A stretch of DNA of 64,000 bases from Halobacteriovorax sp. (lineage in GTDB: Bacteria; Bdellovibrionota; Bacteriovoracia; Bacteriovoracales; Bacteriovoracaceae), in NCBI GenBank assembly GCA_020048985.1, contig JAIFLR010000021.1, positions 1 to 64,000 of the forward strand, read 5' to 3'. This document shows positions 35,891 through 47,538 of the stretch, piece after piece (the first letter of the stretch is position 1; each line of letters starts with the position of its first letter). Under the pieces are notes generated by a model that worked only from the letters and a program-made list of their open reading frames with translations, had not been told where the DNA came from and made no database searches. The position numbers and the translations under genes are program-made.

Positions 35891-37163
35891 AGGCTGAATA
35901 AATATCCCTAAAGAGTTGGTTGATCGTGCGGTTACTTGTCAGGTACATGGGCTCAGTTGTAATCAACTGATGAGCAATTGATGCCTGGTCAAAAAGAGGG
36001 GTAAATCCTCCAAACTCAGAAGATTCTTTATTTAATGTCGCTTCAAGTATTGAGGTGACTTTCGCAAGGTTAAATTTTTTATTTGCGAACTTAGAAATAG
36101 TCTCTCTTTGCTCTCGCAGAGGATTACGTAAGAAGGATCTAAGCACAGTTTTAACACTAGTCACTGAAAGCTGTTTTGATCTTGTTCCGATTTTAACCGG
36201 TATGAACGCCGTTGCTTCCGGAAGCTCGGGGTGATGAAAGCTTGCGAGTCCCCCCCAATCGGTGAGTCCAATTGGCAGACCGACAAACTGGGCTTCGGCA
36301 ACACTCATTCCATAGTCTTCATCGTTATGAACACTCAGGTTCATAAAGACATCAGCACCCTGATAAACTTGAAGAAGCACAGAATTTGGCACTGGGCCCA
36401 TAAAATGAATTCGTTTTTGTGTCTCCGGGGCGAGGGCCTTGTAGGCACTGAAAAAAATTCTAAAATATTCACCCTCAAGGTCTGTGATTCCTACAAATGG
36501 ATCCCCAATAATGTCCTGATTTCCATACAAGTAGAGGTGGGCATGGTGATCATTTTTGAATTCACTTGCAAATGATGTAATAAGAGTTTTGATTCTTTTT
36601 TGGCGGGATAAGCGGCCGGTAAAAATAAAGGCTACATCTTCTTCTTTGAGATTCCATTCCTTTCGCTGTTTAACTCTTAATTCTTCACTGGGATAAAAAT
36701 CCTGTGGGTCAACGGGAAAAGGGCAAACCACGGCAGTGTTTTTGGCCAACATCTTATCGATTAAGGTTTTCTGCCGATCAGAAGCCACTATAAATTCGAC
36801 TTTAAATCCGGCCAGCAGATCGCCCAGTTTTTCCCATTGATGATAATAGAGAGAAAAATCCCCAAAGATATGAAAAAGAATTTTTGGTTTTTTCTTACTC
36901 TGATAGAGCGAAGCTAATTTATGAATAAGTTGCAGCGGATGTGGTTTATGGTCCATAATGACCAGCACATCGGGCGCGAATTTGACGATCTCATCTGCTA
37001 GCTGTGTAAGGTCTTTTGCCGGTAGTGTCTCGTGGGGATAGTTAAAGTTTTTGAGTTCAGCCTTCTGGCATGCTTGGTAGGACTTATGCAGATTAAACAC
37101 AATCTTCTGGCAGCTCACCCAACTGGACTCTGTGAATGAGTAGATGCACGCTATTTTTTGCAT
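35874..37163 (-). CDS. Glycosyltransferase family 4
   Basis: 429 residues. The C-terminal domain begins AFIFTGRLSRQKRI near residue 180, the usual GT4 phosphate-binding strand. NLSVHNDEDYGMSVAEAQFVGLP near residue 285 is the E-x7-E donor motif. The N-terminal acceptor domain is divergent. First gene of a two-gene minus-strand operon with the unknown protein. Confidence 0.82.
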   Translation of the reverse strand: MQKIACIYSFTESSWVSCQKIVFNLHKSYQACQKAELKNFNYPHETLPAKDLTQLADEIVKFAPDVLVIMDHKPHPLQLIHKLASLYQSKKKPKILFHIFGDFSLYYHQWEKLGDLLAGFKVEFIVASDRQKTLIDKMLAKNTAVVCPFPVDPQDFYPSEELRVKQRKEWNLKEEDVAFIFTGRLSRQKRIKTLITSFASEFKNDHHAHLYLYGNQDIIGDPFVGITDLEGEYFRIFFSAYKALAPETQKRIHFMGPVPNSVLLQVYQGADVFMNLSVHNDEDYGMSVAEAQFVGLPIGLTDWGGLASFHHPELPEATAFIPVKIGTRSKQLSVTSVKTVLRSFLRNPLREQRETISKFANKKFNLAKVTSILEATLNKESSEFGGFTPLFDQASIAHQLITTEPMYLTSNRTINQLFRDIYSAYVRKN

Positions 37164-37538: not shown

Positions 37539-37978
37539 AACTTTTTTTTGAAACGAAGATAGATCGCTCAATTGCGACCATCAAGTCTGGATTTACTCTC
37601 GACCTCTTTGTGGCCCTTAAACCTCCCTTCATGAGCATGAACGTGGAGCGCTTTGACGGCTGCTCTCCGGGGCACGAAGTTCACCTGGCAATTAATATGC
37701 TGGGTAAAAAACAGAAATGGATTAGCGTCATTACCCAAGAACAGAATGATGGCAAGGAATGGTCCTTCGTCGATGAAGGAAAGATGATTCCATGGCCCCT
37801 TGCTTCATGGAGACATCATCACCGGGTTGTTTATTTAGATGAAAAGTCATCAAAAATCATTGATGATATCAACTTTGAATGCGTTCATCCTTGGATGAAT
37901 AAGTTCATGTATATTGCCCTGTGGCCAAGTTTTGCCATCAGGCCTCGCCTTTATAAGAAGTTTTTTCAAGGAAAATAG
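37535..37978 (+). CDS. SRPBCC/START-like ligand-binding protein
   Basis: 147 residues. FDGCSPGHEVHLAIN, then FVDEG, then PLASWRHHHRVVYL followed by IIDDINFE match the SRPBCC pattern seen in YfcH-linked and CoxG-like proteins, which bind hydrophobic ligands. No signal peptide. Between the coiled-coil and esterase genes in one operon, with one base before the esterase ATG. Confidence 0.6.
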   Translation: MKLFFETKIDRSIATIKSGFTLDLFVALKPPFMSMNVERFDGCSPGHEVHLAINMLGKKQKWISVITQEQNDGKEWSFVDEGKMIPWPLASWRHHHRVVYLDEKSSKIIDDINFECVHPWMNKFMYIALWPSFAIRPRLYKKFFQGK

Positions 37979-37979
37979 G

Positions 37980-38570
37980 ATGAAGACTTTTTTTTTCGCT
38001 TTGATGATTCTGAGCTTTCAGATTCAGGCGAAAACTGTACTTTTTTTGGGAGACTCCCTAACCGAGGGCTTCCAGCTTGATAAAGAAGACGCCTTTCCTG
38101 CTCTGATTGAAAACAATTTAAAACCCAAATATCCTGACTTGAAAATTATCAACGGTGGAGTCAGTGGAGCGACCACGGCGAGCGGACTGAAACGACTCAC
38201 TTGGTACGTGAAAGCAAAGCCTGATATTATCGTTCTTGCTCTTGGGTCAAATGATGGACTGCGGGGGATGAATTTAAAAGAAACAGAAAAAAATCTTTCC
38301 CTCATTATAGAAAAAGCACAATCAGATAAGATCCAAATACTGCTGGTAGGTATGAAGATGCCAACCAACTACGGTGAGCCTTATCGCAGCAATTTTGAAA
38401 AGCTATTCAAAGACTTAGCGAAAAAATATCACTTGGCCTTAGTTCCTTTTTTACTGGAAGGCATTGGTGGGAATCCCAAACTCAATTTGCCAGATGGTAT
38501 TCACCCCAATACCGAGGGGCATAGAATCATGGCCAAAACTGTACAAACAAAACTGGAACCACTCCTATGA
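37980..38570 (+). CDS. Exported GDSL/SGNH esterase, TesA-like
   Basis: 196 residues from the ATG at 37980, one base after the previous stop. An earlier ATG at 37914 lies inside the upstream gene. The signal peptide is about 17 residues (ends QIQA-K). Blocks: FLGDSLTEGF (nucleophile Ser), GGVSGATTASG, LGSNDG and DGIHPNTEGH (catalytic Asp and His). It is likely a periplasmic arylesterase, thioesterase or lysophospholipase. As in E. coli tesA, it sits beside a ybbA/ybbP-like pair. Confidence 0.9.
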   Translation: MKTFFFALMILSFQIQAKTVLFLGDSLTEGFQLDKEDAFPALIENNLKPKYPDLKIINGGVSGATTASGLKRLTWYVKAKPDIIVLALGSNDGLRGMNLKETEKNLSLIIEKAQSDKIQILLVGMKMPTNYGEPYRSNFEKLFKDLAKKYHLALVPFLLEGIGGNPKLNLPDGIHPNTEGHRIMAKTVQTKLEPLL

Positions 38571-43542: not shown

Positions 43543-44958
43543 ATGAAAACAATTGTGGTTGGTGCTGGGGGGGGAGGGATAGCTTCTGCTCTTCTGGCAA
43601 GCCTTCGAAATGAAGATGTCACCTTGGTGGAAGCTCATGAGAATCTCGGTGGCTGTGCTTCCTGGTTTCATCGTGGGGCCTTTTGTTTTGATGCAGGCGC
43701 AACTACTGTCAGTGGAGTTGCTCCACATGAGCCGATGGGAAAATTGTTTGCTCTCCTTGGGGATTCGCCAGAATTAAAGCGCGTGGATCCAGGAATTGTC
43801 TTTCATCTCTCATCTGGAAAAAAACTTCATTACTTTAAAGACTATGGTCAGTGGATGGGAGAACTCGAAAGAGAATTTCCTGATCTTAATCACCGGCCAT
43901 TCTGGAAAAAGATTTATTCTTTGAATCAAGAATCATGGGGGCTCTTGGCCAATTTGCCTTCCTTTCCGTTTAAAAAACTTAGTGACTTCTGGGAGGGCAT
44001 CCGCTCTCCGGGTCACTATCATCTTTATCCCTATCTTTTTGTTTCAACAGAAATGATGGTGAAGTTTTATGGACTCAACCGACCTGACTATATGGAACTG
44101 TTAAATGGAATCTTGATAATTTCGGCGCAAGCAGAGGCACGTGAGATCCCCTTTTTGGTTGGGGCGATGGCGCTGGCCTATCCGCGAGAAACCTATGCTC
44201 CCGTTGGTGGGATGAAAGGGCTCATGGATTTTCTGGAGAGGAAATGCTTAGAAAATAACGTCAAGATTCTTAAGAAAAGTCCTGTCATTCATCTTGTTTC
44301 GAATAAGGTTACACTCAAGCAAGGCACAGAGTTAGAAGCGGATCGTGTGATTTTAAATGTTCCGTATTGGAATATTCCTGGTCTTTTTTTAGGGCCAGAA
44401 CAAAATATTCTGAAGCGTGAAATGAAAGAAGAAAAACATGCTTGGGGTGCATTTACTTTGTATTTGGGAGTTAAAGGTCAATGTCACGAGCTTTACCAAC
44501 AGATCCATTTAAATCACCCGAAAGTTAAAAATTATTTTGTGTCTTTTTCTATACCTGAAGATTTGGCACGAGCTCCAGAAGGCTGGCAATCCGTGACTAT
44601 TTCCACTCATGTTGATGTTGGAGAGTGGATCGATGTGGATCCCAAACTTTATCAGGCCAATAAACTTGAAATTATGAATCTTATTCTCAAAGATTTTTTG
44701 GATCGTTTTGGAATTTCTGAAACGAAATTCGTGACCGCAGGAACCCCGAAAACTTTCGAGCGATATACGGGAAGAAAATCAGGTTACGTCGGTGGACTTC
44801 CTTTTCTCTATGGGATGAACCCTTGGAAGATCCAAGGTCATGGTACAGACCTTAAAGAAGTGTATCGAGTCGGGGACACCACTTTCCCGGGGCAGGGGCT
44901 GGTGGGTGTAGTGGCAGGTGCTCTGGCGTTAGATCAAAATCTTAAGATAAACGACTGA
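43543..44958 (+). CDS. CrtI/CrtISO-like FAD-dependent oxidoreductase
   Basis: 471 residues. TIVVGAGGGGIASALLASL is the dinucleotide motif, then LVEAHENLGGCASWF, as in phytoene desaturases and carotenoid isomerases. GDTTFPGQGLVGVVAGALA at the C-terminus is the CrtI-type FAD signature. The glycine-rich loop is GAGGGG instead of GAGIGG. Probably acts on a polyene or another isoprenoid; no other carotenoid genes are nearby. Starts three bases after the peroxidase stop. Confidence 0.8.
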   Translation: MKTIVVGAGGGGIASALLASLRNEDVTLVEAHENLGGCASWFHRGAFCFDAGATTVSGVAPHEPMGKLFALLGDSPELKRVDPGIVFHLSSGKKLHYFKDYGQWMGELEREFPDLNHRPFWKKIYSLNQESWGLLANLPSFPFKKLSDFWEGIRSPGHYHLYPYLFVSTEMMVKFYGLNRPDYMELLNGILIISAQAEAREIPFLVGAMALAYPRETYAPVGGMKGLMDFLERKCLENNVKILKKSPVIHLVSNKVTLKQGTELEADRVILNVPYWNIPGLFLGPEQNILKREMKEEKHAWGAFTLYLGVKGQCHELYQQIHLNHPKVKNYFVSFSIPEDLARAPEGWQSVTISTHVDVGEWIDVDPKLYQANKLEIMNLILKDFLDRFGISETKFVTAGTPKTFERYTGRKSGYVGGLPFLYGMNPWKIQGHGTDLKEVYRVGDTTFPGQGLVGVVAGALALDQNLKIND

Positions 44959-44989
44959 AATCTGTTTCTACCTGGCACCTTTTTGAGGG

Positions 44990-45018
44990 TTGTGATGGAA
45001 TTTCAAATTAGCTATACT
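44990..45018 (+). promoter_or_regulatory. Sigma70-like promoter of the structured RNA
   Basis: TTGTGA at 44990-44995 and TATACT at 45013-45018, separated by exactly 17 bases. Transcription is expected to begin near 45024-45025, exactly where the first predicted helix starts. Confidence 0.5.
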
Positions 45019-45069
45019 TTATAAGAGCGTGATCAGGTGGGAGCGTGCGCTAACACACTCCCTAAAACC

Positions 45070-45144
45070 TCATTGATCTCTTAAAATTACAGCAAGCTGT
45101 AACATAAGAATAATCAAAGTCAGTACCCTGATTATGTCTTCCAT
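45070..45144 (-). CDS. Possible 24-residue hydrophobic peptide, type I toxin-like
   Basis: ATG at 45144 with AGAGG seven bases upstream encodes MEDIIRVLTLIILMLQLAVI, then LRDQ and a stop. Length, single hydrophobic helix and charged ends resemble TisB, DinQ and ZorO. The whole ORF is covered in antisense by the candidate RNA at 45024-45230. On the minus strand a terminator-like hairpin (45163-45187) lies just before the ribosome site. A chance ORF in a structured region is a real alternative. Confidence 0.3.
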   Translation of the reverse strand: MEDIIRVLTLIILMLQLAVILRDQ

Positions 45145-45162
45145 AACAAAACCTCTTTTTGG

Positions 45163-45187
45163 AAAAAGGCTCCCCTTCATTGGGGAG
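45163..45187 (-). terminator. Rho-independent-like hairpin downstream of the Kelch gene
   Basis: On the minus strand CTCCCC/GGGGAG (45182-45187 and 45170-45175) with a 6-base loop is followed, after CC, by five T residues. It lies about 130 bases after the Kelch stop codon. It could end that transcript or act as an attenuator before the 24-residue ORF. Confidence 0.5.
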
Positions 45188-45315
45188 TTATGGGAGACTC
45201 CTGCTCCTCTGCAAGAATGCAGGGCAGGTTTGAAAAAGTTAAGTCGATGATTTTAAAGACGGTATATCACAGAGCTGAAATATTTTTACCTTATGAATGC
45301 AGTAAAAAAGTAGAC

Positions 45316-47538
45316 TTACAGCCACTCCCAAAACCACAACGTATTTAGAATTCCAAGTCCACCAACAACCAAGACTCTACCATTTGGTAATAGGGTTGAT
45401 GTATGAGAAATACGTGCATCTGTTAACGGGATTTGATTACTCCAGGTATTCGTTCCTGGATCATACAATTCTACTGTATTTAATTTTAATGAAGTTCGCT
45501 CTTGGCCTGTGACCCCACCACTCACAATCACTTTACCATTCGGTAATAATGTTGAAGTATGTTGTTGGCGTATTTCTTTAAGAGACGCTCGAGTTACCCA
45601 AGTATTTAATTTAGGGTCATATAATTCAACTGTACGTATAACTCTAGAACCATCATACCCACCTATTACCAATAGTTTCCCATTAGCTAACAAAGTTGTC
45701 GTATGTGTAGTGCGTCCTTGAGTTAATGTCGCTAGAGCGCTCCATCTATTTAACTCTGGATCATATATTTCGACGGTAGTTAATTGCCCGGCATAACCAT
45801 ACCCACCAACGACAATTACTTTTCCGTCTGGTAACAATGTTGATGTATGGTTAAGGCGAGCTTCCACTAGAGAACTCTGGATGCTCCAGCTATTCGATTG
45901 AGGATCATATAATTCGACACTATTTAGCATCCCGGATCGATAACCTCTTCCACCAATAACTAACACTTTTCCACTTGGTAATAAAGTAGAGGTGTGGCCA
46001 TAACGATCCTCCCTTAACGACTCTTGGGTAGTCCAAATATTAGTTTCAGGGTTAAATAATTCGACACTATTAGAACTTTGTGCAAAAACTCCATTCTCAA
46101 TTCCTCCGACAACTAAAATTTTTCCATCCTGTAGTAATGTCGAAGTATGCGAATATCTAGCTTCTTTGAGTGATGCCTTTTTACTCCAAGTGTTGGTACC
46201 TGAATCAAATAACTCAACAGTGCTTAATTTTTCTCCAAAATCACCACGGCCTCCAATGACCACGACTTTTCCATTTGCTAATAATGTTGAAGTATGTAAA
46301 TGACGAGCATCCGCGAGTTGCACATTTGTGCTCCAGCTGTTTACTCCTGGGTCATATAATTCTGAATTTAATAATAAATTTCCTGTATTGCTGATTCCGC
46401 CAACTGTCAGGACTTTTCCATTTGCTAACAATACTGAATGATGAGCATAACGAGCATCGTTTAATGGTGCCTGCTTGCTCCAGCTATTAGTTGTCGGATT
46501 ATATAATTCGACGCTATCCAGACATCCTAAAGTCCCGTATCCACCTATGACTAAGACTTTCCCGTTGGGTAAAAGAGTTGAGGAGAACATCATACGATCG
46601 TCAGCAAGCGAAGCCTTTGTGGTCCAAGTGTTTAGGACTGGATCGTATAAATCGACATTCTTTAAATAAGTTAACTTGTCTGTCCCGCCCATCACTAGGA
46701 CTTTTCCGTCCGACAATAAGGTCGTTGAAAAGTTAAGGCGGGCCTTTATTATTGAGGCCCGAGGAGTCCAAGAATTATCTTCCGGATCATATGCGACAAC
46801 ACTATTTAATATGCCAGAATTATCAATGCCACCAATGACCAACACGATTCCATTGGCAATTAAAGTTGCGGAGTGTGCACTTCGACCAAAAATCAATGAT
46901 GATTTTGGTCTCCAGCTATTTGCAACAGGATCATATAGTTCTACCTTGGTTAAATTTCCAGAAGCATTGATTCCGCCCACAACAAAGACCTTACCATTGG
47001 CAAGTATTGTCGATGTATGATCATGGCGAGCTTCAGTTAAGGGGGCCATCGCGCTCCAGGTATTCAAGAGTGGATCATATAATTCCACACTGCTCACATC
47101 ACCAGTTTTTCCTTCTCCACCAATGACCAAGACCTTTCCATTCGTTAATAGAGTAGAGGTGTGGCCATGACGGGCATCTTTTAGCGAGGCACGTTTGCTA
47201 TAACTATTCGTTTGGGGATCATAAAGTTCGACAGTATTTAATGGACCTGAATCGCCGAGTCCACCAATCAGCAGCACTTTTCCATCCGGTAACAGGGTGG
47301 ACGTATGTAGAGAACGACTATCTTGAAGAAAAGAATTCCGAAACGAAAAATTGGCAGTTGGGGAAGTAGGTGTGTTGGGTGCAGTTGGACCATTGGGGGA
47401 GGTCGTGAGACTGCTTTTTTGTGAGCATCCAATATTAAAAAATAATACAAAAACAACAGCAATTAGAGGTCCGTTAAAAATCTTTTTAAAATGTTTCACT
47501 AGAGTTTTCCTGTTCTGTGTTCTGTCTATCGCCACCAT
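45316..47538 (-). CDS. Kelch-like repeat lipoprotein, 14 blades
   Basis: 740 residues. A lipoprotein signal peptide has lipobox FNIGC near residue 38 and is followed by a Ser/Thr/Pro linker. The rest is 14 near-identical 48-residue units of the form LLPNGKVLVIGG, then ELYDP, then W, then AR-x-x-HTST. They match Kelch/galactose-oxidase central-domain repeats, enough for two seven-bladed propellers. The N-terminal ARSLHTST-like strand and the incomplete last unit (ends LWFWEWL) could close the ring. Surface-exposed or periplasmic binding protein; ligand unknown. A start near 47499 would give a more usual signal peptide length. Confidence 0.85.
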   Translation of the reverse strand: MVAIDRTQNRKTLVKHFKKIFNGPLIAVVFVLFFNIGCSQKSSLTTSPNGPTAPNTPTSPTANFSFRNSFLQDSRSLHTSTLLPDGKVLLIGGLGDSGPLNTVELYDPQTNSYSKRASLKDARHGHTSTLLTNGKVLVIGGEGKTGDVSSVELYDPLLNTWSAMAPLTEARHDHTSTILANGKVFVVGGINASGNLTKVELYDPVANSWRPKSSLIFGRSAHSATLIANGIVLVIGGIDNSGILNSVVAYDPEDNSWTPRASIIKARLNFSTTLLSDGKVLVMGGTDKLTYLKNVDLYDPVLNTWTTKASLADDRMMFSSTLLPNGKVLVIGGYGTLGCLDSVELYNPTTNSWSKQAPLNDARYAHHSVLLANGKVLTVGGISNTGNLLLNSELYDPGVNSWSTNVQLADARHLHTSTLLANGKVVVIGGRGDFGEKLSTVELFDSGTNTWSKKASLKEARYSHTSTLLQDGKILVVGGIENGVFAQSSNSVELFNPETNIWTTQESLREDRYGHTSTLLPSGKVLVIGGRGYRSGMLNSVELYDPQSNSWSIQSSLVEARLNHTSTLLPDGKVIVVGGYGYAGQLTTVEIYDPELNRWSALATLTQGRTTHTTTLLANGKLLVIGGYDGSRVIRTVELYDPKLNTWVTRASLKEIRQQHTSTLLPNGKVIVSGGVTGQERTSLKLNTVELYDPGTNTWSNQIPLTDARISHTSTLLPNGRVLVVGGLGILNTLWFWEWL

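Follow-up and report, generated by a model that had tools for sequence, protein, structure and literature searches.

What does the hairpin-rich gap between a FAD-dependent (CrtI-like) oxidoreductase gene and a Kelch-repeat gene encode in Halobacteriovorax sp., and on which strand? The gap lies in the window analysed here, a stretch of 64,000 nucleotides, between the end of the oxidoreductase gene at 44958 and the stop codon of the minus-strand Kelch-repeat gene at 45316. A first-pass annotation had proposed that positions 44990-45230 form a new structured RNA, transcribed from the plus strand by a sigma-70 promoter. The dense folding that it described is real. On the plus strand, this interval has a predicted folding energy of -74.2 kcal/mol (z = -4.67), equalled or bettered by 0 of 200 shuffles, and helices are found at each of the positions proposed, namely 45136-45147 with 45187-45198 (12-nt arms, 92% complementary), 45039-45062, 45087-45102, 45155-45168, 45170-45187 and 45200-45228. 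The annotation had recognised no tmRNA, RNase P, SRP or 6S RNA here, and the whole 64-kb window contains 0 Rfam matches at the gathering score, and the region 44900-45400 gives just two poor matches (E 3.9 and 7.3) at a loose threshold. The minus strand of the same interval folds better than the plus strand, at -87.4 kcal/mol (z = -6.77), and here too 0 of 200 shuffles do as well. The helices enclose a 24-codon minus-strand gene that had been missed, and many of the gap's hairpins belong to this opposite strand. Our reading, which we hold with considerable though not full confidence, is that the gap holds a type I toxin-antitoxin locus, chromosomal and of a new family, in which the minus strand encodes a membrane toxin and the plus strand an antisense RNA that acts as its antitoxin.

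The putative toxin gene occupies positions 45144-45070 of the minus strand (24 codons plus stop, MEDIIRVLTLIILMLQLAVILRDQ), with a Shine-Dalgarno sequence, AGAGG, at 45152-45156, 7 nt before the ATG. The gap element is multi-copy, with two copies beyond that of the window in the same genome, three in all, and many in relatives. From an alignment of 34 extracted copies, window included, we took a conserved block and made it a search pattern, which matched 26 stretches in a scan of named genomes. Two of these, L063 and L069, were dropped as chance matches, as the frame there runs open like that of an ordinary coding gene; the records of the other 24 bear the names Bacteriovoracaceae, Halobacteriovoraceae or uncultured Oligoflexia. 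On the minus strand, 35 of 37 distinct pattern matches carry an open reading frame (ORF) of 23-27 codons that starts ME(D/E) and has an A/G-rich ribosome site. Because the first codons are in part dictated by the pattern, we built a covariance model, R1, from 29 copies. We examined 99 of 100 family matches; the one outside the count is the G147 copy (L076), which has the ORF. We counted as a hydrophobic mini-ORF any frame of 18-45 codons whose mean hydropathy over 15 residues exceeds 1.6; the minus strand has one in 93 of these 99 matches and the plus strand in 9. Genomes that contributed nothing to the model retain the minus-strand ORF as well (38 of 41 matches). An M(E/D/K)(D/E/G) start was found directly in 87 of the 93 ORFs, the script having chosen another start in the other 6, and at least two (L145 and L126) look shortened. 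Selection acts at the codon level. Across 39 distinct 24-codon genes, pN/pS is 0.45 in the toxin frame versus 0.61-1.43 in the five other frames, and among 20 distinct genes the third codon positions vary most (8.11 versus 5.28 and 3.23). The predicted toxins are about 23-30 amino acids long across the family; the window's peptide, at 24, falls among the small hydrophobic peptides (fewer than about 60 amino acids) that characterise type I systems.

The toxin-antitoxin reading draws on what can be read in the DNA, namely an ORF under codon-level selection, its ribosome site, a plus-strand promoter, a covarying fold, spread in many copies and copies that have decayed. From these we infer both transcripts, toxicity and its neutralisation, an effect on the membrane and a role for RNase III. 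The minus strand would be transcribed into an mRNA for a single-pass membrane peptide of 24 residues. In this mRNA, the Shine-Dalgarno sequence would lie in a hairpin and the start codon in a helix that encloses it, while codons 4-7 would pair at long range with the 3' region; with all three held in helices, the primary transcript should be poorly translated. An antisense RNA of about 205 nt from the plus strand, complementary to the whole toxin ORF, the ribosome site and part of the leader, would block toxin translation by pairing and would probably leave the duplex open to RNase III. Once toxin mRNA exceeds the antitoxin, perhaps by way of a promoter at TTTCA-N4-TGAAA, the peptide would be made and would pass into the inner membrane, where it would reduce the membrane potential and arrest growth.

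The covariation that the first-pass annotation had suggested as a check proves strong across related copies. We aligned 44 minus-strand sequences and derived a 57-pair consensus from that same alignment, in which 87.9% of cells are paired, 39 pairs show two-sided changes and 305 cells are two-sided, versus shuffle means of 76.1%, 26.4 pairs and 97.5 cells; 0 of 500 shuffles reach the observed value. When partners are slid by 1-3 columns, 42.0-48.7% of cells pair. A minus-strand hairpin at 45152-45169 sequesters the Shine-Dalgarno sequence (81.6% of cells paired; two-sided changes in 2 of 4 pairs), and beside it stands the leader hairpin of the toxin mRNA at 45170-45187 (91.4%; 4 of 5 pairs). 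Enclosing both, the start-codon helix (45136-45198, pairing 45136-45147 with 45187-45198) closes over the ATG, with about 90% of cells paired and two-sided changes in just 2 of 9 pairs. A long-range helix (45030-45134, pairing 45030-45038 with 45125-45134) joins codons 4-7 to the 3' region (82.3%; 7 of 9 pairs), and the hairpin downstream of the toxin stop codon at 45039-45062, which is also the 5' hairpin of the plus-strand RNA, is paired in 94.8% of cells with two-sided changes in 10 of 10 pairs. The consensus fold further includes helices in the coding region. When the mRNA of the window copy is modelled, the probability of being unpaired is 0.00-0.01 for AGAGG and 0.00 for the ATG. An inhibitory fold of the toxin mRNA is a common, not universal, property of type I systems, and the covarying helices over the ribosome site and start codon provide one here.

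On the plus strand, a sigma-70-type promoter for the predicted antitoxin RNA spans 44990-45018, with TTGTGA at 44990-44995 and TATACT at 45013-45018. This promoter, on which the first-pass annotation relied, is unremarkable when taken alone (2 promoter-like sites in 461 bases versus a mean of 0.8 in shuffles); what sustains it is the conservation of its position in related copies. We scored -35/-10 pairs near the expected start in 97 evaluable copies, two others being dropped for missing sequence. Scores of at least 12 points were reached in 89 copies, 13 in 66 and 14 in 38, versus 42%, 16.8% and 4.4% of shuffles, which keep base content only, and the offset at which the -10 box ends is the same in 33 of the 97. 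The predicted antisense RNA would occupy about 205 nt at 45025-45231, its start being placed from the promoter and its 3' end uncertain. A hairpin at 45200-45228 lies at this end and is followed by just TTTG, and no strict intrinsic terminator is found on this strand in the window copy; across the family, 22 of 98 copies have one on the plus strand (shuffles 4.4%) and 15 of 97 on the minus strand (2.2%). Begun at about 45025, the RNA would cover the complement of the toxin ORF, the ribosome site and part of the leader. The conserved promoter is so placed that it could transcribe a separate antisense RNA overlapping the toxin mRNA, and going by the promoter, the covariation and the lack of an Rfam match, a plus-strand RNA of about 205 nt transcribed from it is likely. 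We also observed a repeat, AGGTGCCAGGT, at 44970-44980 (minus strand), just upstream of the antitoxin promoter. It is not significant in the window alone, and similar repeats are seen by eye beside the copies in L049 and L038.

The family is patchy in its distribution. R1 matches 16 of 26 same-genus genomes and has no match in the other 10. In the family Bacteriovoracaceae, R1 gave 100 matches, spread over 34 of the 129 genomes searched and 11 of 48 sampled genera. Across the phylum Bdellovibrionota, 25 of 290 sampled genomes were positive, all 25 in this same family; large searches run with stricter filters, to which weak matches are lost. Positive genomes hold 1 to 10 copies, and among the matches examined there are 9 neighbouring pairs less than 600 bp apart. 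Six matches have no ORF. One of them, L148, runs into the end of its contig, and the other five are 79-145 nt long. Four of the five (L136:285-429, L161:329-458, L135:346-477 and L151:288-412) keep the outer parts of the element and are missing the bulk of the membrane-coding region, which looks like inactivation through an internal deletion; the fifth, L160:297-375, aligns too poorly to judge what is missing. R1 also matched the window at 37925-38088 (minus strand, E 0.0044), where no hydrophobic mini-ORF was seen by eye, and at 36544-36649 (minus strand, E 0.77). Both were set aside as chance. In the handful of loci where neighbours were examined, some copies lie near sugar-nucleotide, methyltransferase and type II toxin-antitoxin-like genes, including Gp49/HTH genes of the latter kind, an epimerase gene and a methyltransferase gene at L043:3801-4411, L049:7112-7507, L045:1589-2554 and L048:2151-2795.

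This pattern of spread bears on whether the peptide is a toxin at all. A membrane micro-peptide with a regulatory or structural role, its gene under the control of an antisense RNA, would account equally well for the coding and regulatory evidence, toxicity being an inferred part of the toxin reading, and one peptide of the family weakly resembles KdpF (E 0.059, below the cut-off). However, the variable copy number, the absence from over a third of same-genus genomes, the tandem pairs and the decayed copies are more typical of toxin-antitoxin loci, and a ribosome site held so tightly shut suits a toxin. We therefore regard a non-toxin peptide as unlikely, yet as the strongest of the rivals to a type I toxin.

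The first-pass proposal itself, a free-standing structured plus-strand RNA with a function of its own and an incidental minus-strand ORF, fares worse and is now quite improbable. It can claim the conserved plus-strand promoter, a plus strand that folds beyond chance and the covariation of the family. Against it stand the ORF kept in 93 of 99 matches, with its codon-level selection and ribosome site, and the way in which the helices tolerate G-U pairs. Since a G-U pair on one strand is an A-C mismatch on the other, G-U counts can be compared between the strands. The structure used had been optimised for the minus strand, and the comparison is biased accordingly. In it, minus-strand G-U cells versus those of the opposite kind number 45 versus 7 in the start-codon helix, 67 versus 5 in the 3' hairpin and 29 versus 14 in the Shine-Dalgarno hairpin. 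The leader hairpin (12 versus 16) and the long-range helix (16 versus 20) show no minus preference, as a free-standing plus-strand RNA would allow. Over 29 sequences, the mean fold z is -6.30 for the minus strand versus -5.46 for the plus strand, with minus lower in 20. On this comparative evidence, a large share of the fold is that of the predicted toxin mRNA. In particular, the 12-bp helix with its two enclosed hairpins, read by the first-pass annotation as a three-way junction of the plus-strand RNA, fits better as the leader and start codon of the minus-strand mRNA in their folded state, given the 45 minus-strand against 7 plus-strand G-U cells. The plus-strand RNA is most likely not free-standing; a conserved membrane-peptide gene runs antisense to it. 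That the locus is a passive mobile or repetitive element (REP/MITE-like), its palindromes folding by chance of sequence, is barely credible: it is multi-copy, intergenic and hairpin-rich, with some copies in neighbouring pairs, but it shows codon-level selection and a conserved promoter and ribosome site, numbers no more than 10 copies per genome, and has no match in plasmid and phage records at E 1e-5 or, by the family pattern, in viral contigs.

Among known type I systems, the proposed locus is arranged like Ibs/Sib of Escherichia coli, and on our best reading its toxin is like TisB and Ibs. Ibs/Sib is described as having several chromosomal copies, a very small hydrophobic toxin, and an antitoxin RNA opposite the toxin that overlaps the entire coding region and ribosome site (PMC4147584). 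The present family has the same layout, in many copies, with the RNA itself predicted. The two differ in that the present locus has no Rfam match, none of the 26 diverse peptides that we searched matches Ibs in Pfam or NCBIfam, and the element upstream of the toxin is different; the covarying long-range and start-codon helices of the present family may be a further difference. With TisB/IstR1, also of E. coli, the family shares a hydrophobic peptide of similar size and pattern and a ribosome site sequestered in the mRNA (PMC7708055). IstR1 is described as constitutively transcribed (PMC7708055), as the present antitoxin would be. IstR1, however, pairs far upstream, at a standby site (PMC7708055), whereas the antisense RNA predicted here would cover the ribosome site and ORF. 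Four of the 26 peptides touch the Pfam TisB profile (best E 0.0063) and three that of NCBIfam (best E 0.017), with best scores of 17.3 bits for a cut-off of 25 (PF13939) and 14.8 bits for a cut-off of 38 (TIGR04459); the window's own peptide has no match in Pfam or NCBIfam. Given these scores, we propose a toxin that would work like TisB or Ibs and file it in neither family. In TimP/TimR, hok/Sok and similar systems, mRNA structure likewise shuts the ribosome site before activation (PMC11228461; PMC4147584), but no sequence relation to them was found in Pfam or NCBIfam. Closed ribosome sites and antitoxin pairing have been described for tisB, timP and others (PMC7708055; PMC4147584; PMC11228461).

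The kind of system is therefore already known; the family, and its place in the Bdellovibrionota, appear to be new. Among the papers listed by a literature search on toxin-antitoxin systems in Bdellovibrio or Bacteriovorax, none reports a type I system in these bacteria in its title or opening abstract lines. Before a cyanobacterial case in 2025, type I systems are described as known only from Proteobacteria, Firmicutes and Tenericutes (PMC12390103), a usage of 'Proteobacteria' that may include the former Deltaproteobacteria. The same source attributes this narrow range to search methods that seek relatives of known loci. The present family surfaced from an intergenic fold instead. Its natural variation, in toxin length, covarying mRNA locks and decayed copies, makes it well suited to studying how such locks evolve.

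The signal that would set off the toxin may be written in a shared upstream element. A motif search found TTTCA-N4-TGAAA in 82 of the 92 toxin upstream regions kept after thinning, with a log-likelihood of 253 at width 20 (40 starts) versus 61-69 in three shuffled sets (12 starts each). At least 8 of its 10 bases are present in 64 of 91 copies (2 skipped) versus 13.7% of shuffles, and 53 of those 64 elements sit 122-144 nt before the toxin ATG. The window copy has an imperfect element (8/10) at 45267-45280 on the minus strand, 136 nt before the ATG, with a low fitted-motif score of 5.6. The motif extended by one T is not enriched in the window's own genome (8 matches versus 7 for a reversed control), and neither is a sigma-70 promoter before the toxin, where 22 of 92 regions reach 13 points versus 35.1% of shuffles. 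TTTCA-N4-TGAAA may be the toxin promoter or operator, and because it is shared, the question of how the toxin is activated becomes directly testable. More tentatively, and with the odds rather against it, the many diversified pairs could form a lineage-specific growth-arrest switch of Bacteriovorax-type bacteria that answers to one signal through this element, such as a phase of the predatory cycle, starvation or phage attack. The SOS response, which induces tisB (PMC7708055), found no support as a source of control in the loci inspected by eye: in L166, L169, L171 and L172, the 4 of 10 recA/lexA loci that were in gene orientation, the upstream sequences are unlike the toxin element and contain no TTTCA-N4-TGAAA. 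Just upstream of recA/lexA in these four loci we saw by eye direct repeats resembling TACGGA-N5-TACGG or its complement, a candidate LexA box of the lineage.
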